DNA from: Prinia subflava | Taxonomy: Eukaryota; Chordata; Aves; Passeriformes; Cisticolidae | Assembly: GCF_021018805.1 (NCBI RefSeq) | Contig: NC_086247.1 | Span: 137,123,602 to 137,187,601, forward strand | DNA length: 64,000 bases | Reading direction: 5' to 3' | Shown here: one piece after another, positions 49,822 to 59,328 of the stretch | Layout: each line of letters starts with the position of its first letter | How positions within the stretch are numbered: the stretch's first letter is position 1 | Made by a program: the position numbers and the translations under genes | Notes under the pieces: model-generated | Seen by the model: only the letters and a program-made list of their open reading frames with translations | Told to the model about the DNA's origin: nothing | The model's database searches: none

Positions 49822-49847
49822 ATTACAGAGTCACAGAAAAGCTGGGG
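49822..49847 (-). mobile_element. CR1 LINE 3' tip, left part of the copy split by the provirus
   Basis: The + strand acagagtcacagaaaagctggg is the antisense 3' tip of a CR1. Its continuation, ttgggaaggacttctggaga, lies at 59329 on the far side of the provirus. Removing the provirus and one copy of the 6-bp duplication would give an uninterrupted CR1. The CR1 is therefore older than the retrovirus. Confidence 0.8.
49842..49847. repeat. Target-site duplication, left copy (ctgggg)
   Basis: These six bases directly abut the TG end of the LTR at 49848 and are repeated exactly at 59323-59328. A 6-bp duplication is what alpha- and betaretroviral integrases leave; gammaretroviruses leave 4 bp. It shows that the two LTRs belong to one integration and have not recombined with another locus. 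Confidence 0.93.
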
Positions 49848-50685
49848 TGTCGCGGTGCCGCTACTAAGCCCCTTGGCTTCACCCCGAGCCAGCCCAGGCA
49901 CCGGAGCAAGCGGAATCCGAGCTGCCCCTCAGCGGAACGAAGGGGTCAGCCCTGTGGGTTCTTGTCCCTGGGAGAGGCCGGAACGGCAGTAGGATAACTG
50001 AAGCGACGCGCTAAGAGCGAGAAAGGAGGATCCAGCCAGCCAGACAGAGGAACCACAACTTTAATCCAACATAGCACTGTCCAGACCGAAGTGGAACCAG
50101 GCTGAACTGGAACTGGATACCGAACAAAGAAATGCACCAGCTTATATGCTTTCGGGGTAGGGGAGGAGAAATGGGAGTCCCTCTTTGCGGCAACCAATGG
50201 AACCTTGACACTTGGGAGATAAGGGGAAGGGTTGCAAGCCTTGAACCAATTAGGGGATAGGGGAGGGATAACACAGTGGCGGGAAGAGGGGAAAAGGTAA
50301 CATGTGACCAAGGGGAACTTATGAATTTCAATTAAGGGGGGGGTGTACAGAACATACAGCATTGTACAGAACATACAATATAGGACCCACCAGCCTTTCA
50401 TCTTTTCCACATATCTAAATCCTTCCTACTTGGTAAACCACCCATATATCTTTCAACTTCTCTCTGCCTCAAAACCCTCTTTCCTATATCCTTCTTTCAG
50501 CACCCTCTCCTTCTTCCTTAAGTCTCTCTCTTTAAATCCTCTCCCTCGTCTGTCCTTCTTTTCCTTGTCACAGTCCTTCACAGCACCTGCTTGTTTCTGC
50601 TTACACTGTCCCAACTTTCTTTGTGGAGTCCAACTGAGGTTTAACATACTGAAATGGGGAAAGTCCAACCATCCACACCACCACA
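49848..50685 (-). repeat. 3' LTR of the provirus (838 bp)
   Basis: This is the same 838 bp as the LTR at 58485-59322. On the - strand it starts TGTGGTGGTG after the polypurine tract and ends GGTGCCGCGACA. The TATA-like ATATAAG lies at 50141-50147 and an ATTAAA polyadenylation signal at 50060-50065, followed by a GT-rich stretch (GTTGTGG). This suggests a U3 of about 570 bp, an R of roughly 60-75 bp and a U5 of roughly 190 bp. Inverted CCAAT motifs occur near 50193 and 50235. A 19-bp tandem repeat lies at 50344-50380. Confidence 0.95.
50344..50380 (-). promoter_or_regulatory. Tandem 19-bp repeat in U3 with two TGTTCT half-sites
   Basis: The + strand tgtacagaacatacagcat is followed at once by a second tgtacagaacataca. 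On the - strand this gives two TGTTCT hexamers (50349-50354 and 50368-50373), about 200 bp upstream of the TATA-like box. TGTTCT is the half-site bound by glucocorticoid, progesterone and androgen receptors, and mouse mammary tumour virus uses clustered half-sites of this kind. Neither unit forms a full palindromic element, so hormone response is only a possibility. The same repeat is in the 5' LTR at 58981-59017. Confidence 0.45.
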
Positions 50686-50702
50686 TCTCCCCCTTTTCTT
50701 TT
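50686..50702 (-). promoter_or_regulatory. Polypurine tract (plus-strand primer site)
   Basis: On the - strand this reads AAAAGAAAAGGGGGAGA, 17 purines directly abutting the TG start of the 3' LTR. This is the RNase H-resistant primer for plus-strand DNA synthesis. Its intact state and exact position fit a functional element. Confidence 0.93.
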
Positions 50703-50721
50703 ATTTTTGACCCTGTGAGTT

Positions 50722-52230
50722 CTATCTCAGATATCCGAATTGAGGGGGGTCCACCAGGTGTTCAGAACGTGGGTATGATTCTGCAAACCACTGCTGTTGA
50801 GTAGGCCATTGTTCTCGAGGAAAGCTGCGCACTTCTTCCACGATGATTTCAAGCTGTTCAGCCTGCTCGTCCTCATCAACGAAGCTTTCCTCCTCCTTGA
50901 ACACTTCTGGGCCTACTTCAACGGCTACTCGGTGGACTTCAGCTTTGAGTGGTGATGTGGAGGAAGAAATCAAATTCTGCAACATCTTTTTCATTAGTCC
51001 AAGGCTGGCAATAGCAACAAAAAGCACAAAAACAATTAACAGAACAGTTTTAAGAATCGATCCCGTCCAACCCGAGATCCCCCATCCCTTGAACAAATTA
51101 CTGAGCCAGTCCCCGTATTCTTGCTTGATGTCTCCTATCATGTTTTCCATTTGTTTGAGTGCCTCGCGAGTCCCCTTGGCCCTAGATGTCAAATTAAAGC
51201 AGCAGAGCCCCTCAAACTCCTCACACGAGTGACCGTGGAGGAGCAGGAGGTAATCGATGGCTGCACGATTCTGGAGGGTTGCCTGCCTCGTAATTTCCTC
51301 ATCTTTCAGGAGGTTTGATAGGGCCCTAGAAGTCAAACGGGATTGCTTAGCTACCCAACATTCCAAATGGCCTAATTCTCCGAGGGTCTTAGCAATGGCG
51401 ACCCACGGCGCAAATACTGTGATTGCGATGCCTTTAGATCTGCTCCAATGGATAATTTCCTCATCGCAATCGTCTGCCAATTTTTTGAGAGAGTAGTCTT
51501 CTCTCTTCTTTCTAGAGTGTGCCAATAGATGTGCACCATTTGTAGAATTTTGTGTAACCCAATCCAAAATTTGTGATTTGTTGGGTGAAAACAATCCGAG
51601 GGTCCCAAAGGTGCACGGGCCTCCGGAGAGGTGAGAGGGGATACCTGCCCATGCGTGGTCTCCGCAAATCAAGAATGTTCCCCTAGGAAGCTGGCGGGGA
51701 TGGGCAAAGACTTGGGCTGATTTTTGGGGAGGGATTGGAGGATAACTAAAGGACACAGCGTTACACCAATGAGTATTAAAATGGGCTTTGGAGGAGACAA
51801 AATGACGGTGGTGACGCTGGACGTGGTCGTTGCGGATATGAAAACAAGATTCGGCTCTGGCGGAACCTAGAAGCTCCAGCTCCTGAGGCTCGTTTTCTAA
51901 CTTTGGAAGACTTTTAATATAATTGTACCACGCGACGATGTAATGGGCATGCTTTAGGTTATGCTCCATTTTAGCAGCTTCTTGTCTAAGTTTTTGAGCA
52001 TAACCTAGAAGCATCTTGGGCATCTCACGATCTTTAAATGGGATCCCCACGAGGCAGGATGCCATGGGATTCGCGGCACTCGCTTGGTTGAGACATATGT
52101 GGTCTTGGCCCAGTGATTTGGCCAAGACAGTCCAGACGTTCTGTTGTGGCTGGGGGACGAGCCACGCCTGGGCGATGGTCAGGAGACTGGCGAAGAGGAC
52201 GGCTGAACTGATGGCAGTCTTGGCGCTCAT
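50722..52230 (-). CDS. env: Retroviral envelope glycoprotein, 502 aa, intact
   Basis: Env mediates receptor binding and membrane fusion. It has a signal peptide (1-22), a short surface subunit ending at the furin-type RKKR (240-243), and a transmembrane subunit of 259 residues. The latter has an internal fusion loop between C255 and C291, the conserved LQNRAAIDYLL helix region (319-329), and C336-X6-C343-C344, which in related viruses binds SU covalently. A membrane anchor (about 390-414) and an 86-residue acidic cytoplasmic tail follow. The loop and CX6CC place it with alpharetrovirus-type Env. SU is only about 221 residues, with six cysteines and two N-glycosylation sequons (N217, N228); TM has one (N346). 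The start is chosen because a stop lies five codons upstream and the ATG has A at -3. No breaks were seen. Confidence 0.95.
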   Translation of the reverse strand: MSAKTAISSAVLFASLLTIAQAWLVPQPQQNVWTVLAKSLGQDHICLNQASAANPMASCLVGIPFKDREMPKMLLGYAQKLRQEAAKMEHNLKHAHYIVAWYNYIKSLPKLENEPQELELLGSARAESCFHIRNDHVQRHHRHFVSSKAHFNTHWCNAVSFSYPPIPPQKSAQVFAHPRQLPRGTFLICGDHAWAGIPSHLSGGPCTFGTLGLFSPNKSQILDWVTQNSTNGAHLLAHSRKKREDYSLKKLADDCDEEIIHWSRSKGIAITVFAPWVAIAKTLGELGHLECWVAKQSRLTSRALSNLLKDEEITRQATLQNRAAIDYLLLLHGHSCEEFEGLCCFNLTSRAKGTREALKQMENMIGDIKQEYGDWLSNLFKGWGISGWTGSILKTVLLIVFVLFVAIASLGLMKKMLQNLISSSTSPLKAEVHRVAVEVGPEVFKEEESFVDEDEQAEQLEIIVEEVRSFPREQWPTQQQWFAESYPRSEHLVDPPQFGYLR

Positions 52231-52265
52231 GGTTGGACGGATCTAAACAGAAACTCAGAAAAACA
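52228..52265 (-). promoter_or_regulatory. env splice acceptor overlapping the pol stop
   Basis: On the - strand a pyrimidine-rich run TTTGTTTTTCTGAG then TTTCTGTTTAG ends in AG at 52244-52243, 12 nt before the env ATG (52230). The pol stop codon TGA (52257-52255) lies inside this tract. With the leader donor at 58220 it would remove a 5,978-nt intron. This is inferred from sequence only. Confidence 0.7.
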
Positions 52266-55200
52266 AATCGTTACAAAGTGGGAAATCACAGAAAAAGGGG
52301 TCCTCCCAGCCTTCTGACTGCTCCTCCTCTTCCTCTGAGTCACTGGACTCACGCCTTCTGCGGCGGAGAGCCGCGGAGGCGACTTGAGGCTTTTCGTTTT
52401 CTCGGACTTTTGTTTTTCTTTCGATATAAGGCTTTACCCATCTGGAGGGTATCCACTTCGGCCCGGCATCAGTGGAGACGCAGGCGTACCCGCGCCCCCA
52501 CGTCAAAAGCGTCAGTGGACCCTCCACTTTCCCTGTTTCGGGAAACCTTACGGTCACCGGCGGATGCTGCTCACTCAGGTCCCAGTCGCGGTTGCTATTG
52601 AAATGCCGCACAACGGGCGGATCTGGTTTTTCATAAGAACAATTTAGGAAATTTAACACATAAAGTGCCCTTGCCAATCTGATTGATGGAGTTTCAACCT
52701 TCAGGACTGGTCTTTGCTGTTGAAGGACCCGTTTGACGTTCTGATGAGTCCTTTCAACAATGGCCTGACCCGTGGGGGAGTGAGGGATGCCTGTTTTATG
52801 CTCAACTCCCCATTGCTGCAGGAAATCTGCAAGCTCCCTGGAAGTATACGCAGGGCCATTATCTGTTTTAATTTCCTTGGGGATGCCCATGAAAGAGAAG
52901 GCCTGAATGAGGTGTCGGATGACGTGGGAGGCCTTCTCCCCTGCGTGTGCGGAGGCATAGACTACACCCGAGAAGGTATCAACGGACACATGCACGTACC
53001 GGAGCCTCCCGAACGCCGCCACATGGGTGACGTCGGTCTGCCAGATTTCACAACTTCCCAGCCCTCTAGGATTGACTCCGGCGTGCATGGTCGGCACGGA
53101 GTGGGATTGACACGATGGACACGAAGCCACAATCGCCCTGGCCTGTTGCCGGGTGATACGAAATCGGCGGACCAGGGCTGGTGCATTCTGATGGAACAAA
53201 GCATGGCTGAGCTGTGCCTGTTGAAATATGTCAGGCAGTGGGGTCTTTGTCACAGGAGCAGCGAGAGCATCTGCTCTCCTGTTGCCCTCTGCAACAAACC
53301 CTGGCAAATCGGTGTGCGACCTTGTGTGCATCACGTAGAAGGGGTGCTCTCGGTGGGACACAAGCTTTATAAGTTTCGAGAGCTGCGCATAAAGCGCGTC
53401 GTTGGAAACCTGCTGTAATACTGCCTGATCAGCTCTGGACACTACCCCTGTAACATAGGCAGAGTCGGTAACTATGTTTAGCGGTCCGGGAAATCTCTCT
53501 AATGCCCTGACGACTGCGGCCAACTCAGCGACTTGAGGCGAACCCTCAACGATTTCAACATCACTGTCCCACTGCTGAGTTTCGGGATCCTCCCAGGTCA
53601 TCACTGACCTGTGAGAAGCCCCGGACGCGTCTGTAAAAACGGTCAAGGCCTGGAGTGGTTTTACACTTCGGACACTCCTCAATGCCAATTCAAAATTTCC
53701 ATCCAGATTGAACAATTTGTGGGCCGGCCGATGAATTGAAATTTGGCCCGTAAAAGAGTCCAGAGCGAATTGTAGAGCTTCATTATTTTGAAGCAGAGTT
53801 TCCAACATGGGTTTGGTGATCTGGCCCGAGGATAATTTGATGGGGAGATGGATGCACTCAAAGTCACAACCGGCCAACTCGCAAAGGCGCGTACGTGCCT
53901 TGCGGATCAGCTCAGCCATGATTTCTTGTGGCCTCGTAAGTCTCTTGGGCCGGTGGTGGCTAAGAAAGACCCACTCTATGATCAGCAGTGGATCTCTCCC
54001 CCCGTGGCCCTTGGTGTCATGCTGTGTGGTGTTCGAATCCCACTGAAAAATGACCCCAAAAAGATGCGGGAGCTTACCCAGCACCACGAACCGAAAGGGT
54101 AAGCCGGGGTCACATCTGTGCGCCTGGCGTGATGACAACGCCTGTTGTACCTTCTCCAGTGCTTTCCTTGCCTCCGCGGTGAGCGCCCTGGGAGAGCTAA
54201 GCTCATCTCCCCCCTTCAATAAATCGAAGAGGGGTGCTAGATCCTCCGTGGAGAGACCCAGCCAGGGCCTCACCCAATTCAACTCTCCGCAGAGTCGATG
54301 GACATCCGCAAGGGTCCGGACTGATGTCCGGATAGCCAATTTTTGGGGAACAATGGTCCGCCGTCCGATTTCCAGCCCCAGGTATTTCCAGGGTGGCATC
54401 CGCTGAATCTTCTCTGCTTGCAGCTCAAACCCTGCAGCAACTAACAAATCTGTTACGCGTGTGAGGACTCTATCCAGTTCGCTTGTTGTTGGGGCGCAAA
54501 TGAGGATATCATCCATGTAATGGTGGATGATAACCTCCTCCGCGGCTGCGCGCACAGGACGCAGCAAGGAAGAGACGTACAGCTGGCACATCACCGGGGA
54601 GTTCTTCATACCTTGGGGAAGAGCCCTCCAGTGATACCTCTTCCTTGGGGCCGCTCGGTTGATGGTAGGCACCGAGAAGGCAAAACGCGGTGCGTCATCC
54701 GGATGTAAGGGAATTTGGAAGAAGCAATCCTTCAGATCAATAACTGCCAGATTCCAATTTCGGGGCAGCATGGCAGGGGATGGCATTCCTGGTTGGAGGG
54801 ATCCCATGTCCTCTATAACGTTATTAATTTGTCGAAGGTCGTGAAGGAGGCGCCAGCGCCTTCCGTCACTCTTTCGAATGACGAAGACGGGCGAGTTCCA
54901 GGGGGAATTCGTTTCCACGATATTACCCTTCTGTAACTGCTCCTCCACGAGCTCCTCGAGCGCCTTTAATTTCTCCTTGGATAGCGGCCACTGGTCAACC
55001 CACACTGGATTATCCGTTTTCCAATTCAGTTTGAGGATTTGGCGCTCCTCAGTGACCGCTAGGCAAAAAACCTGAGGGGGGTCTGGGATACTAATTGTGA
55101 CCCCCCATTGGAACATGAGCTCCCTACCAAGCAGGGGCCGTTCATATTTGCAAACGAAAGGGCGCGTATATGCCAATTGCCCTTTCGGCCCCGTGAATTT

Positions 55201-55920
55201 CACCATGCGCGCTGATCTCTTAGCCGATTGAAAACCCCCTACTCCGGAGATATTCGCCGGCGCGTCCTCCAAGGCCCAATGTGACGGCCACTCCCGGGTG
55301 GGAATGACCGTGACATCCGCTCCTGTGTCAAAAAGAAGACCTTTATTAACGGACTCATCCCCAATGGACATCGTACATTGTATTATAGGTTTTTCTTCTG
55401 TGATCCGATGCACTGCGTTGACTGAAAGTGGCCTTTCCTCAGGGTAAACCTGATACTGATCTGGCCTGGTGTGTGGAATTGCCTGGGCCACTATTTGTCC
55501 CTTTGGGTGGAAAGCTGGGGGATGAGTGGAACGCAGCCAGACATTGAGGAACCTGGGGTCACCCTTATAGGTCCCCGGGTATACCTCAATGTCTTGCGGA
55601 GTGTATTTACAGTCCCCAACAACAATGAACTTACCTTTCCTTTGAAACGGCCAGTCCAGAAGGTCTTCGCAATCCACGCGAACTGGGTACCAGCTGGTAT
55701 CTCTGAGGTGCGCACTGTGAGTGAGCCTCAACCTGTAAGGTTTACAAAATGGTGTTAACGTCAAGTCTGGGAAAGTTCCCTCCTGGGAAGGGTGAAGGAA
55801 ATGCCAGTCCGAGATAGTTGTCTTGGTCCAGTGACCCCCAAAGGCGTTGACTGCCTTCTCTTCTGCACTGCCCACCCTGTTGGGGTCATCATGCCGGGTG
55901 GGCCCGCACTCCCCCCCTAG
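52255..55920 (-). CDS. pol: Pro-Pol: dUTPase-like region, protease, reverse transcriptase, RNase H, integrase (reached by -1 frameshift)
   Basis: The frame opens at the gag slippery site (55920) and runs 1,221 codons; numbering here starts at the GTG at 55875. Residues ~40-135 look like a divergent dUTPase (VYPGTYKGD, then FHPKGQIVAQAIP) without a clear catalytic Asp in the third motif. The protease has DTGAD at 183-187. RT has D380, LPQG (419-422) and YMDD (453-456). RNase H has D749, E784, D804 and D869. Integrase has H891, H895, C919, C922 for zinc and D948, D1005, E1041 with the DX35E spacing, then an SH3-like end (~1119-1150). The protein ends in an unusual tail: five arginines (1171-1175) and an Ser/Glu run. 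All catalytic residues are present and no internal stop was seen. Unlike betaretroviruses, pro and pol share one frame, so only one frameshift is needed. Confidence 0.95.
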   Translation of the reverse strand, partial: LGGECGPTRHDDPNRVGSAEEKAVNAFGGHWTKTTISDWHFLHPSQEGTFPDLTLTPFCKPYRLRLTHSAHLRDTSWYPVRVDCEDLLDWPFQRKGKFIVVGDCKYTPQDIEVYPGTYKGDPRFLNVWLRSTHPPAFHPKGQIVAQAIPHTRPDQYQVYPEERPLSVNAVHRITEEKPIIQCTMSIGDESVNKGLLFDTGADVTVIPTREWPSHWALEDAPANISGVGGFQSAKRSARMVKFTGPKGQLAYTRPFVCKYERPLLGRELMFQWGVTISIPDPPQVFCLAVTEERQILKLNWKTDNPVWVDQWPLSKEKLKALEELVEEQLQKGNIVETNSPWNSPVFVIRKSDGRRWRLLHDLRQINNVIEDMGSLQPGMPSPAMLPRNWNLAVIDLKDCFFQIPLHPDDAPRFAFSVPTINRAAPRKRYHWRALPQGMKNSPVMCQLYVSSLLRPVRAAAEEVIIHHYMDDILICAPTTSELDRVLTRVTDLLVAAGFELQAEKIQRMPPWKYLGLEIGRRTIVPQKLAIRTSVRTLADVHRLCGELNWVRPWLGLSTEDLAPLFDLLKGGDELSSPRALTAEARKALEKVQQALSSRQAHRCDPGLPFRFVVLGKLPHLFGVIFQWDSNTTQHDTKGHGGRDPLLIIEWVFLSHHRPKRLTRPQEIMAELIRKARTRLCELAGCDFECIHLPIKLSSGQITKPMLETLLQNNEALQFALDSFTGQISIHRPAHKLFNLDGNFELALRSVRSVKPLQALTVFTDASGASHRSVMTWEDPETQQWDSDVEIVEGSPQVAELAAVVRALERFPGPLNIVTDSAYVTGVVSRADQAVLQQVSNDALYAQLSKLIKLVSHREHPFYVMHTRSHTDLPGFVAEGNRRADALAAPVTKTPLPDIFQQAQLSHALFHQNAPALVRRFRITRQQARAIVASCPSCQSHSVPTMHAGVNPRGLGSCEIWQTDVTHVAAFGRLRYVHVSVDTFSGVVYASAHAGEKASHVIRHLIQAFSFMGIPKEIKTDNGPAYTSRELADFLQQWGVEHKTGIPHSPTGQAIVERTHQNVKRVLQQQRPVLKVETPSIRLARALYVLNFLNCSYEKPDPPVVRHFNSNRDWDLSEQHPPVTVRFPETGKVEGPLTLLTWGRGYACVSTDAGPKWIPSRWVKPYIERKTKVRENEKPQVASAALRRRRRESSDSEEEEEQSEGWEDPFFCDFPLCNDLFF

Positions 55921-55926
55921 TTTTTT
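55870..55926 (-). promoter_or_regulatory. gag/pro-pol -1 ribosomal frameshift signal
   Basis: The heptamer A AAA AAC (55926-55920) is in the gag frame and is followed at once by the gag TAG (55919-55917). The pol frame is -1 relative to gag and open from this point. Downstream, GCCCACCC (55903-55896) can pair perfectly with GGGTGGGC (55877-55870). The loop CCCC (55885-55882) could pair with the G run at 55917-55911, giving a pseudoknot. A AAA AAC is the type used at the gag-pro site of mouse mammary tumour virus. The folding is my inference and was not computed. Confidence 0.85.
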
Positions 55927-57845
55927 GAATTGTGTCCGGAGTCCTCCTGCTGTGGCCGAGGCTTTGCCAGCAAGTTATGCGGGCATTGGCTCACAAAATG
56001 CCCTTTTTCATGGCAGAGGTAGCACTCGACCCGTGCTCTAGCTGGGTTCGACGCTGCCGGCTTGCGGGCCTGTGGGCGACGAGGAGTCGCATCTTCCGCA
56101 GCATGCACCTGCCGAGTTCCCTGCTTGCTTGCGGTGGTCATATGTTGAAGCAGGAAAGGGACCTTTTGCTGGCAAACTTGCAGCATCACCTGTAGAGTCC
56201 GTGGGGGTTCTGGAGGGAGACTTAAAATCGCTTGTTTGCATACATTATTAGCATTAGCAAAAACAATCTCCTCCAAAATTCTCTTACGGGCGAGCCCGTC
56301 CGTTACTTGTATTTCTAAAGCCCTAGTCATCTTGTCCACGAAATCTACAAATGATTCTGTGTCCCCTTGCCTAATCTGGGTGAACGGCGGCAGGGGTGCA
56401 CGAGGCTGCATCGTGAAAAAGGCTTTGCAGGCCAGGTCTTGCACCCTAGGCAAAACTGCTGGTGGAATGAGCAGTGCCTGAATTTGAGGGGACTCGAAGG
56501 AACCTTCTCCTCCCAGCAATTCAACAGTAAGGGGATTACCTCCCTCATCAATTGCTGGGAGTGGCAGGTGCGGCAGCTCTTCCCGCAGGGCTTGCCTAAA
56601 CGCAGCAAGCCATAATTCAAATTCAGCCGGTGTCATCAGGCAAGAAAATAATTGCTTTAAGTCTGCAGGAAGGGTTGTCGCAGCTGCTAGGTCTGCCTGA
56701 AGGAGGCCGCGGAAGTACGGGCTCTCTCTCCCAAATTCTTTGTGCGCCTTACATAAATCTCGAATTATAGTTTGTGAAAATGGCTGCCAATTCGGTTTAG
56801 GTTCGCCACCCCCGCGAGCCTTTCGGTAGGTGACAGGCGCAGCTGAGAGATGCACTTCCTGGTTTCCATCGCTGTTGTCTTCCGGTTCCCTACCGTGGGA
56901 ACCGGAAGAGGCAGCGTGGGAACTACCATTCCAAGATGGCCTCCTTCCGGGGTGGGGAGAAGTGCCTGGCTCCGCCCCTAGGGCGGGCCAGGGGGCAGGA
57001 GTGGGAGGAGTGTCAGCGTGGGAAAAGGGAGGGACCGAAGGCGGGGTTTGGGCGGCCACAAAGGGAGGAGACATCGGGTATGTGGGAGGAGCCATGGGTG
57101 GAGCAAGGGAGGGAACAGAGGGGGCGGGTGTGGGAGGGACCAAGGGGTAAAATGGGTTGGGCAGATAAAAGGGGTTGGGCGGGTATGAAGGGGTTGGGTC
57201 AAGGAAGGGATTGGATTTCGGGGGAGGGGGACGCGGGGGAGGGGTAGGAGAACGGCGCGAACGGGCGCCATCTTGTGTGTCGCAGGCGCCATCTTGTGGC
57301 TCCTGTGACGCAGCAAGATTAAATCTAACTTTTGGTCGATAACGTGGGGAGACAGGGGAAGGGCTGCGTCCCCGGGCCGCTTGTCCAGGGCGACCCGAGG
57401 ATTCCTCAGCAGTCCGGACAAGACTGCTGAGGCTGGGGGACCGGGAGTTCTGGCGAGAGCCTGGGCTGGCAGACCTAGGGTCTGCGGCTCTCCTCAGAAT
57501 TCCCTTCCGAGGAACACGGGGATTGGGAGAAGGGGAACGGGAAACTGGGGCGGGCGGTCGCGTTGGCTTTTCATGCAGGGGAGAGCTGTTAGCGATCGTT
57601 TTAAATTTGACAATCAAAAACATAAAATCTTGGGGACATTTATCCGAATTGGCCGCCTTTTTTTCGATCGCCTCCCAGTAACGGGGGTTCCTCACAAGCT
57701 CCTCAGACGTGTTACTGAACTGCACGGAAAGCCACCGCACCAGCCTTTTTAACGAACCGCGGGAGAACTGAACCTTGTTCTCCTCCAAAACTCTAACAAG
57801 AACATAATAAACTCCTTTCTGGGTGGTCGAAAGCGAGGCACCCAT
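55917..57845 (-). CDS. gag: Retroviral Gag polyprotein, 642 aa, intact
   Basis: Gag drives particle assembly. It begins MGASLS, an N-myristoylation signal (G2, S6), with a matrix-like region up to ~90. A long linker (~95-300) is first Arg/Ser-Pro rich, with RSPS or RSPT at 103, 135, 160 and 198, then strongly proline-rich. It contains PPTY (253-256), a match to the PPxY late-budding motif, and two PNPFY repeats. Capsid follows (~330-575), with the major homology region at 491-511 (RQGDTESFVDFVDKM). Nucleocapsid has a single CCHC knuckle, C608-X2-C611-X4-H616-X4-C621. One knuckle is fewer than the two usual in alpha- and betaretroviruses. The ATG at 57845 has G at -3 and +4. The stop is the TAG at the slippery site. 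No breaks were seen. Confidence 0.95.
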   Translation of the reverse strand: MGASLSTTQKGVYYVLVRVLEENKVQFSRGSLKRLVRWLSVQFSNTSEELVRNPRYWEAIEKKAANSDKCPQDFMFLIVKFKTIANSSPLHEKPTRPPAPVSRSPSPNPRVPRKGILRRAADPRSASPGSRQNSRSPSLSSLVRTAEESSGRPGQAARGRSPSPVSPRYRPKVRFNLAASQEPQDGACDTQDGARSRRSPTPPPRPPPPKSNPFLDPTPSYPPNPFYLPNPFYPLVPPTPAPSVPSLAPPMAPPTYPMSPPFVAAQTPPSVPPFSHADTPPTPAPWPALGAEPGTSPHPGRRPSWNGSSHAASSGSHGREPEDNSDGNQEVHLSAAPVTYRKARGGGEPKPNWQPFSQTIIRDLCKAHKEFGRESPYFRGLLQADLAAATTLPADLKQLFSCLMTPAEFELWLAAFRQALREELPHLPLPAIDEGGNPLTVELLGGEGSFESPQIQALLIPPAVLPRVQDLACKAFFTMQPRAPLPPFTQIRQGDTESFVDFVDKMTRALEIQVTDGLARKRILEEIVFANANNVCKQAILSLPPEPPRTLQVMLQVCQQKVPFLLQHMTTASKQGTRQVHAAEDATPRRPQARKPAASNPARARVECYLCHEKGHFVSQCPHNLLAKPRPQQEDSGHNSKN

Positions 57846-58460
57846 CTCGCCGGTGTTGAAAAACCACCCTCACCCAAGACCGGACCAACTAAATCTCAAA
57901 CAGAAAACCGTAACTGCCGCAACTTAAAAACCGGGCAACCCTGCACTCGCTAAAGCCACCGATCCTCCCGGCGCGCGGCACACGCAACGTCCCCAAAAAC
58001 CCGACTCTCCCCCAGCTCCGAGCCTCCCTCGAGAGCTGGCAGGAGCACTCGAACGAAACAAACCCGAACGAAAAGAACTGAAAACCGCCTGGGCACGACC
58101 AAACCGGGAGCGAGAACAAAAGCGTTAACCCCCCGGTCCTGCGCAGACTTCTCCTCGGAGCCCTCCCCCGTGGCTTGGAGAGGGGGTCCTGATCGCGTGC
58201 CCCCGACGGAGGGTACTTACCTGCGGTCTTGGGGAACCCTCAGCGCACAGAAGACTCCGCCGGGAGTGCTGCCGACGAAGCTGCCTCCTGGATCTGCGAG
58301 GAGCGCTCCTCCGAAGAGGCTGCTCGACTCGCAGCGGTGGGACTGCCCTGGATCTGAAACTCTTCGGTGCTCGCGCCTGGTGCAAGCACCGCCAATCCTC
58401 ACGGGGACCACAAAGAGGGAAGACAAGAGCCTCCACGGAAACTCAAGGCTTCTCCTCAGG
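57846..58460 (-). promoter_or_regulatory. Retroviral leader with splice donor (packaging region expected here)
   Basis: These 615 nt lie between the primer binding site and the gag ATG. A perfect donor, CAG/GTAAGT, sits with the exon end at 58221 and intron start at 58220. It is upstream of the gag ATG, so spliced env RNA would use its own ATG. The 374 nt between the donor and gag are specific to unspliced RNA and are where a packaging signal would be expected; none was identified by motif. Open frames across the leader, such as one at 58125-58436, start at non-ATG codons and are not supported. Confidence 0.75.
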
Positions 58461-58478
58461 GTCCCATCTGGGGTGCCA
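58461..58478 (-). promoter_or_regulatory. Primer binding site, apparently for tRNA-Arg(CCU)
   Basis: On the - strand TGGCACCCCAGATGGGAC lies six bases after the end of the 5' LTR. Its complement, read as a tRNA 3' end, is GTCCCATCTGGGGTG plus CCA. This fits, as I recall it, the 3' end of a vertebrate tRNA-Arg(CCU), and not tRNA-Trp (alpharetroviruses) or tRNA-Lys (most betaretroviruses). The tRNA assignment rests on memory. Confidence 0.75.
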
Positions 58479-58696
58479 GCCACCTGTCGCGGTGCCGCTA
58501 CTAAGCCCCTTGGCTTCACCCCGAGCCAGCCCAGGCACCGGAGCAAGCGGAATCCGAGCTGCCCCTCAGCGGAACGAAGGGGTCAGCCCTGTGGGTTCTT
58601 GTCCCTGGGAGAGGCCGGAACGGCAGTAGGATAACTGAAGCGACGCGCTAAGAGCGAGAAAGGAGGATCCAGCCAGCCAGACAGAGGAACCACAAC

Positions 58697-58702
58697 TTTA
58701 AT
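58697..58702 (-). terminator. ATTAAA polyadenylation signal in the 5' LTR copy
   Basis: On the - strand ATTAAAGTTGTGG gives the common variant signal ATTAAA followed by a GT-rich element. It lies about 75 nt downstream of the TATA-like box, so R would be short. The copy that acts in the 3' LTR is at 50060-50065. Confidence 0.65.
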
Positions 58703-58777
58703 CCAACATAGCACTGTCCAGACCGAAGTGGAACCAGGCTGAACTGGAACTGGATACCGAACAAAGAAATGCACCAG

Positions 58778-58784
58778 CTTATAT
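58778..58784 (-). promoter_or_regulatory. TATA-like box of the proviral promoter
   Basis: On the - strand GCATATAAGC sits between an upstream inverted CCAAT motif and a downstream ATTAAA signal, the expected U3/R arrangement. Transcription would start about 25-30 bp further along the - strand, near 58750. Confidence 0.7.
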
Positions 58785-59322
58785 GCTTTCGGGGTAGGGG
58801 AGGAGAAATGGGAGTCCCTCTTTGCGGCAACCAATGGAACCTTGACACTTGGGAGATAAGGGGAAGGGTTGCAAGCCTTGAACCAATTAGGGGATAGGGG
58901 AGGGATAACACAGTGGCGGGAAGAGGGGAAAAGGTAACATGTGACCAAGGGGAACTTATGAATTTCAATTAAGGGGGGGGTGTACAGAACATACAGCATT
59001 GTACAGAACATACAATATAGGACCCACCAGCCTTTCATCTTTTCCACATATCTAAATCCTTCCTACTTGGTAAACCACCCATATATCTTTCAACTTCTCT
59101 CTGCCTCAAAACCCTCTTTCCTATATCCTTCTTTCAGCACCCTCTCCTTCTTCCTTAAGTCTCTCTCTTTAAATCCTCTCCCTCGTCTGTCCTTCTTTTC
59201 CTTGTCACAGTCCTTCACAGCACCTGCTTGTTTCTGCTTACACTGTCCCAACTTTCTTTGTGGAGTCCAACTGAGGTTTAACATACTGAAATGGGGAAAG
59301 TCCAACCATCCACACCACCACA

Positions 59323-59328
59323 CTGGGG
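59323..59328. repeat. Target-site duplication, right copy (ctgggg)
   Basis: It is identical to 49842-49847 and directly abuts the CA end of the LTR at 59322. Confidence 0.93.

Follow-up and report, generated by a model that had tools for sequence, protein, structure and literature searches.

How did a complete retrovirus, its genes still open, come to lie in the genome of a wild African songbird? The provirus in question occupies positions 49848-59322, on the minus strand, of the window, the whole 64,000-nucleotide stretch of contig NC_086247.1 that we analysed from the tawny-flanked prinia, Prinia subflava (RefSeq assembly GCF_021018805.1). It runs from long terminal repeat (LTR) through leader, gag, pro-pol, env and polypurine tract to a second LTR. 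The locus is a single member of a large and young provirus family whose genes are mostly open. The family's 72 near-identical copies most likely trace back to a replicating virus that recently infected the germ line again and again, not to the copying of one resident element, and we give this reading a probability of roughly 0.78.

The provirus is structurally complete, as the original prediction for this stretch had proposed. Base-by-base alignment of the 5' LTR (58485..59322; TATAA at LTR position 540, ATTAAA at 621) with the 3' LTR (49848..50685) gave 838 identities in 838 bases, and both LTRs have TG...CA ends. The prediction had found no difference by eye and could have fallen on LTR differences; it did not. 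The perfect 6-bp target-site duplication that it described, CTGGGG on the plus strand, stands directly outside both LTRs, at 59323..59328 beside the 5' LTR and at 49842..49847 beside the 3' LTR. The three long frames are open, all on the minus strand. gag encodes 642 amino acids from its ATG (55917..57845, in a stop-to-stop frame at 55917-57869) and env encodes 502 (50722..52230, in a stop-to-stop frame at 50722-52242), while pro-pol is a single open frame that overlaps the end of gag (52255..55974). Pfam recognises Gag_p24, Gag_p24_C, RVP, RVT_1, RVT_thumb, RNase_H, Integrase_Zn, rve, IN_DBD_C and Avian_gp85. The catalytic and structural motifs are likewise all present: one CCHC, DTG in protease, YMDD in reverse transcriptase (RT), HHCC and DD35E in integrase, and RKKR and CX6CC in Env. 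What the original prediction missed was the number of copies, the type of envelope and the evidence of repeated infection.

The provirus has many close relatives in the same genome. A 32-base pattern across the junction of U5 and the primer-binding site, allowing at most 2 mismatches, detected 72 provirus copies in the assembly and 0 in a reversed control, which rules out a singleton. Among the env and gag matches listed, 71 of these 72 junction copies have a full-length open env and 68 have an open gag. Every gag scored is open (69/69), as is every pol (38/38), and all 38 of the latter belong to copies with open gag and env. These searches returned the best-scoring copies (the best 85 of 2,699 candidates for env, 69 of 27,770 for gag and 38 of 6,089 for pol), so that frameshifted copies could have dropped below them; counts from the junction and LTR patterns do not depend on open frames. 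The single junction copy with no listed open env, at C2:37.89-37.90 Mb, has an open gag and is flanked by two occurrences of the LTR word, the pattern used to count LTRs.

Decay is visible elsewhere in the same search. An older related env group in this genome, at 76-82% identity, carries stops in 5 of 9 rows among the env matches listed, and the env search therefore shows decay where decay exists. Further diverged groups, 76-96% identical to the window env, account for 13 of the 85 listed rows; stops interrupt some of these, while others are open. They appear to be earlier or parallel waves. Lone LTRs of the family are few, since the LTR word occurs 154 times in the genome, about 10 more than the provirus copies need. 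This estimate subtracts from 154 the LTRs that should belong to provirus copies for which one or two LTRs were observed, with about 100 of the 154 listed. Across passerines the average solo-LTR ratio is reported as 97.6% (PMC11009239).

LTR pairs date the insertions as recent. We compared them in 73 of 76 copies, dropping 3 in which an LTR could be detected in just one of the paired stretches, and left out 3 more that lay over 20 LTR substitutions from the window copy. In the resulting core set of 70 pairs, 65 have no substitution and 61 are identical even when indels are counted; altogether there are 9 within-copy substitutions in 57,741 sites, and the most divergent pair has 3. Exact 6-bp target-site duplications flank 58 of the core pairs and 59 of all 73. 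Those 59 are all distinct and near-identical host flanks are absent among the 73 copies, which rules out segmental duplication. At the zebra finch mutation rate of 5.0e-9 per base per generation (PMC12047795), the 70 core copies have a mean age of about 16,000 generations, with a 95% interval of 7,000 to 30,000. The window copy alone, with zero LTR differences, is at most 358,000 generations old (one-sided 95%), and both figures bear out the claim that it is very young.

The diversity among copies is older than the insertions. LTRs of different copies differ by a mean of 12.3 substitutions (1.54%), 99 times the within-copy level, and only 2 of 2,415 copy pairs show zero substitutions. For 132 of the 140 core LTRs the strictly nearest LTR is the mate in the same provirus; 8 are tied and none is beaten. 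The differences therefore pre-existed in the RNA that founded each provirus. LTR diversity arose before insertion, either while the virus replicated or among source proviruses that had diverged, and not at the locus afterwards. An assembly collapse that copied one LTR onto the other, which the original prediction had named as a danger, is unlikely given this variation among loci and the nearness of mates.

The LTRs also bear possible marks of exchange. All four combinations of variants occur at 360 of 1,225 informative LTR site pairs. These conflicts fit recombination between co-packaged virus genomes, and repeated mutation would add to the count. LTR length in the core set ranges from 763 to 874 bp through several indel blocks, one of which, 64 columns long, is absent in 17 to 19 copies.

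The envelope is of the avian gamma type by its sequence features. Its transmembrane subunit (TM) matches TM structures of avian sarcoma and leukosis viruses (E=6.5e-14), and part of its surface subunit (SU) matches Avian_gp85. A furin-like RKKR lies at residues 240-243, and Cys 255 and Cys 291 follow. By position only, the two cysteines flank a presumed internal fusion peptide of the kind that avian gamma-type envelopes carry some nine residues from their cleavage site; RKKR ends at 243. A CX6CC motif lies in TM at 336-344 (Cys 336, 343 and 344), and a membrane span is predicted at about 387-417. These features are the ones by which Henzy and Johnson (PMC3758190) characterise the avian gamma-type TM, then known only from alpharetroviruses. 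They also mention a predicted N-glycan where heptad repeat 1 begins, which this Env lacks, its only N-glycan motifs lying at 217, 228 and 346; the same paper treats that glycan as something that filoviruses have too, and it does not define the avian gamma type. The provirus thus unites a betaretrovirus-like gag-pol with an alpharetrovirus-like (avian gamma-type) env. The window copy's env is one codon shorter than that of the other 27 copies compared, and both lengths are open.

Env seems to have been in use while the family spread. Across 28 copies, env has a ratio of nonsynonymous to synonymous change (dN/dS) of 0.11 (bootstrap 0.075 to 0.152), with 0.066 in SU and 0.19 in TM; an integrase fragment, also from 28 copies, gives 0.071. 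The env sample comprised the 30 loci closest to the window env by protein, less 2 in which the start was not found. Of 30 integrase fragments sought, 1 could not be placed and another was set aside because of a stop. Protein identity to the window env is 98-100% in 72 of the 85 listed env rows. Spread inside germ cells without Env would let env drift; the sampled copies, with their mostly silent env differences, show no such drift, and most replication rounds therefore seem to have needed Env.

Diversity that predates insertion, combined with a working envelope, is best fitted by repeated germ-line infection. In such a cycle, full-length RNA would yield Gag, a -1 frameshift at AAAAAAC would add the pro-pol products, and a spliced RNA would give Env. 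Env would be cleaved at RKKR and would drive fusion through its cysteine-flanked internal fusion peptide. Virus released from one cell would then enter germ cells and integrate anew, and every new provirus would carry the silent differences gathered by its virus lineage over many replication rounds. Its two LTRs would be identical at the start because both come from one RNA.

Germ-line infection may still be continuing. We see an even chance that a betaretrovirus-like virus with an alpharetrovirus-type envelope is now colonising the germ line of this wild African songbird, in which case most of the 72 loci would be polymorphic, each bird would have its own set and an infectious form would circulate outside the germ line. 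When the rest of the one assembly was searched with the empty site, no second allele lacking the provirus came up.

Several observations weigh against repeated recent infection. Some copies are damaged or may be: a stop interrupts 1 of 29 integrase fragments, 4 of the 72 junction copies have no listed open gag and 1 has no listed open env, and pol was scored for 38 copies. In 12 of the 70 core pairs the 6-bp duplication is not exact: 10 have 4 or 5 bases in common and 2 have none. A single age for all insertions would predict a more even spread of LTR differences than we see, so the insertions probably vary in age. The env sample was chosen by protein similarity (top 30, 28 used), which lowers dN; as a rough arithmetic bound on this bias, a 2% protein difference in every copy at the same dS would give a dN/dS of about 0.56. 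Divergent sources and young copies could also go together if a small number of long-lived proviruses had given rise to all copies lately. LTR homogenisation by the assembler is possible though unlikely.

The copies could instead have spread inside germ cells. A few resident germ-line proviruses would have multiplied there by retrotransposition, with no infectious phase and with env as a passenger. All copies are, after all, assembly loci with host flanks, the gag and pol needed for such spread are open in all copies scored (gag 69, pol 38), and two copy pairs with substitution-free 5' LTRs resemble parent and daughter. Yet the supposed passenger is open in 71 of 72 copies, and its differences, mostly silent in the 28 compared, are nearly as constrained as those of integrase. 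Moreover, with only those two pairs free of differences among 2,415, few copies share a recent parent. We consider spread by retrotransposition improbable.

Another route places the diversity in old host loci. Source proviruses would have diverged in the germ line for about 1.5 million generations, the time that 1.54% between copies represents at the host rate, and each would have seeded copies recently by infection or transposition. Related older env groups do exist in the same genome. However, loci that old should show diverged LTR pairs, whereas the maximum among the 70 core pairs is 3 substitutions, and selection on env over such a time would demand continued use of Env. We give ancient sources little credence. 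That the assembler or gene conversion equalised the LTRs of each copy and so masked its true age is very improbable: LTRs are long near-identical repeats, but here each locus keeps LTR differences and an LTR length of its own (763 to 874 bp in the core set), no LTR is closer to another locus than to its mate, the open coding frames agree with a young age and the 59 exact host-side duplications all differ.

Repeated germ-line infection by a replicating virus thus remains the reading we favour, and the rest of the provirus suggests what kind of virus it was. Its pol is closest to betaretroviruses, as judged by scores rather than by a tree with reference viruses. Integrase scores 264 bits against structure 7usf and 255 against 3jca, both of which we take to be mouse mammary tumour virus (MMTV); it scores 170 against 7jn3, presumably Rous sarcoma virus (RSV), and 136 against 1c0m, which is labelled RSV. 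The top structure match of RT is 7sr6, which we take to be human endogenous retrovirus K (HERV-K). Gag has a class II capsid and a single zinc knuckle, its CCHC motif, and the best solved relatives of the capsid are labelled endogenous retrovirus group K, followed by RSV capsids.

Gag and pro-pol appear to be joined by frameshifting. A slippery heptamer, AAAAAAC, lies directly before the gag stop (55920..55926, minus strand) in a phase that fits X XXY YYZ. Since pro-pol overlaps the end of gag in the appropriate frame, one -1 shift is predicted to yield the whole Gag-Pro-Pol, with protease, RT, RNase H and integrase in a single open frame. Ahead of the protease lies a stretch of 179 amino acids (55390..55926, minus strand) with no assigned domain. 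Betaretroviruses carry a dUTPase in this region. Here the stretch has no Pfam match up to E=10, and a 7-sequence profile of it found a sole PDB match up to E=1, the dUTPase 2d4l, with a non-significant E=0.46. A predicted model, with a mean predicted local distance difference test score (pLDDT) of 35.5, is meaningless.

Signals for reverse transcription can be read from the internal edges of the LTRs. A candidate primer-binding site (58461..58478, minus strand) starts with TGG six bases past the inner end of the 5' LTR, and a polypurine tract (50686..50702, minus strand) adjoins the 3' LTR. Pattern searches for the 3' end of a matching tRNA turned up nothing convincing, and no matching tRNA gene was found. 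tRNA-Arg, suggested by similarity to the candidate site, was tried as primer and not confirmed: tRNA 3'-end patterns gave 0 matches twice, and allowing three mismatches gave 1, compared with 16 for the reversed control. Neither Rfam nor tRNA scans gave a hit in the window. Within the candidate primer-binding site (junction 58461-58484), 5 of the 72 copies carry a two-base variant and 1 has a single-base variant, perhaps reflecting a different primer tRNA.

The provirus in the window landed in a repeat. The reconstructed empty site, consisting of the host flanks and one CTGGGG, matches 19 other places in the genome at 74-89% identity, all spanning the junction. The target is therefore an interspersed repeat, presumably CR1.

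Retroviral invasion of a germ line is rarely caught in progress, and this single assembly contains dozens of dated young copies whose genes are open. LTR pairs act as an inner clock that separates host time from virus time. The speed of genome colonisation and the response of the genome become directly testable in a wild bird, and the Prinia provirus family is a good system for following the process. Passerine genomes keep gaining ERVK insertions and turning them into solo LTRs, according to PMC11009239. In agreement with that, the Prinia family looks like the stage that precedes solo-LTR clearance.

Set beside known retroviruses, the Prinia provirus combines features of two genera. Like MMTV and HERV-K, it has an integrase, capsid and RT that score closest to betaretroviral structures. 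Betaretroviruses have gag, pro and pol in three frames and a dUTPase in pro; in the Prinia provirus, by contrast, pro and pol share a frame, no dUTPase is recognised and env is not of the beta type. Alpharetroviruses carry protease in the gag frame, whereas the Prinia provirus has its RVP domain in the frame of pol. Songbird class II (ERVK-like) elements with an Avian_gp85 env have the same gene set. Their RT regions are 76% identical to that of the window provirus over the full query (P0166, Hirundo) and 78% over 63% of the query (P0264, Zosterops), and the mix of betaretrovirus-like pol with an Avian_gp85 env is therefore not itself new. The best protein match of the window env, 99% identical, is from Prinia subflava itself; Env proteins of other species are at most 51% identical to the window env among listed matches covering at least 80%. 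TgERV-F is likewise an avian class II recombinant, with alpha and beta features in gag-pol and an env from elsewhere (PMC10536682 and PMC3758190). Its env is of the mammalian gamma type, whereas the Prinia env is of the avian gamma type, with an internal cysteine-flanked fusion peptide. A link to the cuckoo finch, Anomalospiza imberbis, a brood parasite of the host, was rejected: the single listed Gag protein, P0124, is just 36% identical.

The closest parallels are invasions under way. The Prinia family would resemble koala retrovirus A as a young, intact, multi-copy invasion of a wild host's germ line. Koala retrovirus is a marsupial gammaretrovirus with demonstrated infection, whereas the Prinia provirus is known here from sequence alone. 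Koala retrovirus A is named as a credible ongoing invasion in the study of invading endogenous retroviruses (ERVi) by Wang and Han (2023; PMC10435555), which covers 412 elements in 123 species. As with the ERVi described there, the Prinia copies suggest a virus that is, or until recently was, exogenous and that enters germ cells time after time. That study recognises an ERVi by identical LTRs, by intact gag, pro, pol and env, and by insertional polymorphism in the host population; the window provirus displays the first two of these three. The name Prinia is absent from the main text of PMC10435555, its supplements lying outside this check, and a full-text search for Prinia together with endogenous retrovirus found no paper in the collection searched. 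The ERVi study spans many species, whereas here a single assembly yields, from one family, no fewer than 38 loci in which all three frames are open. The Prinia provirus family is a strong new case of this known kind.

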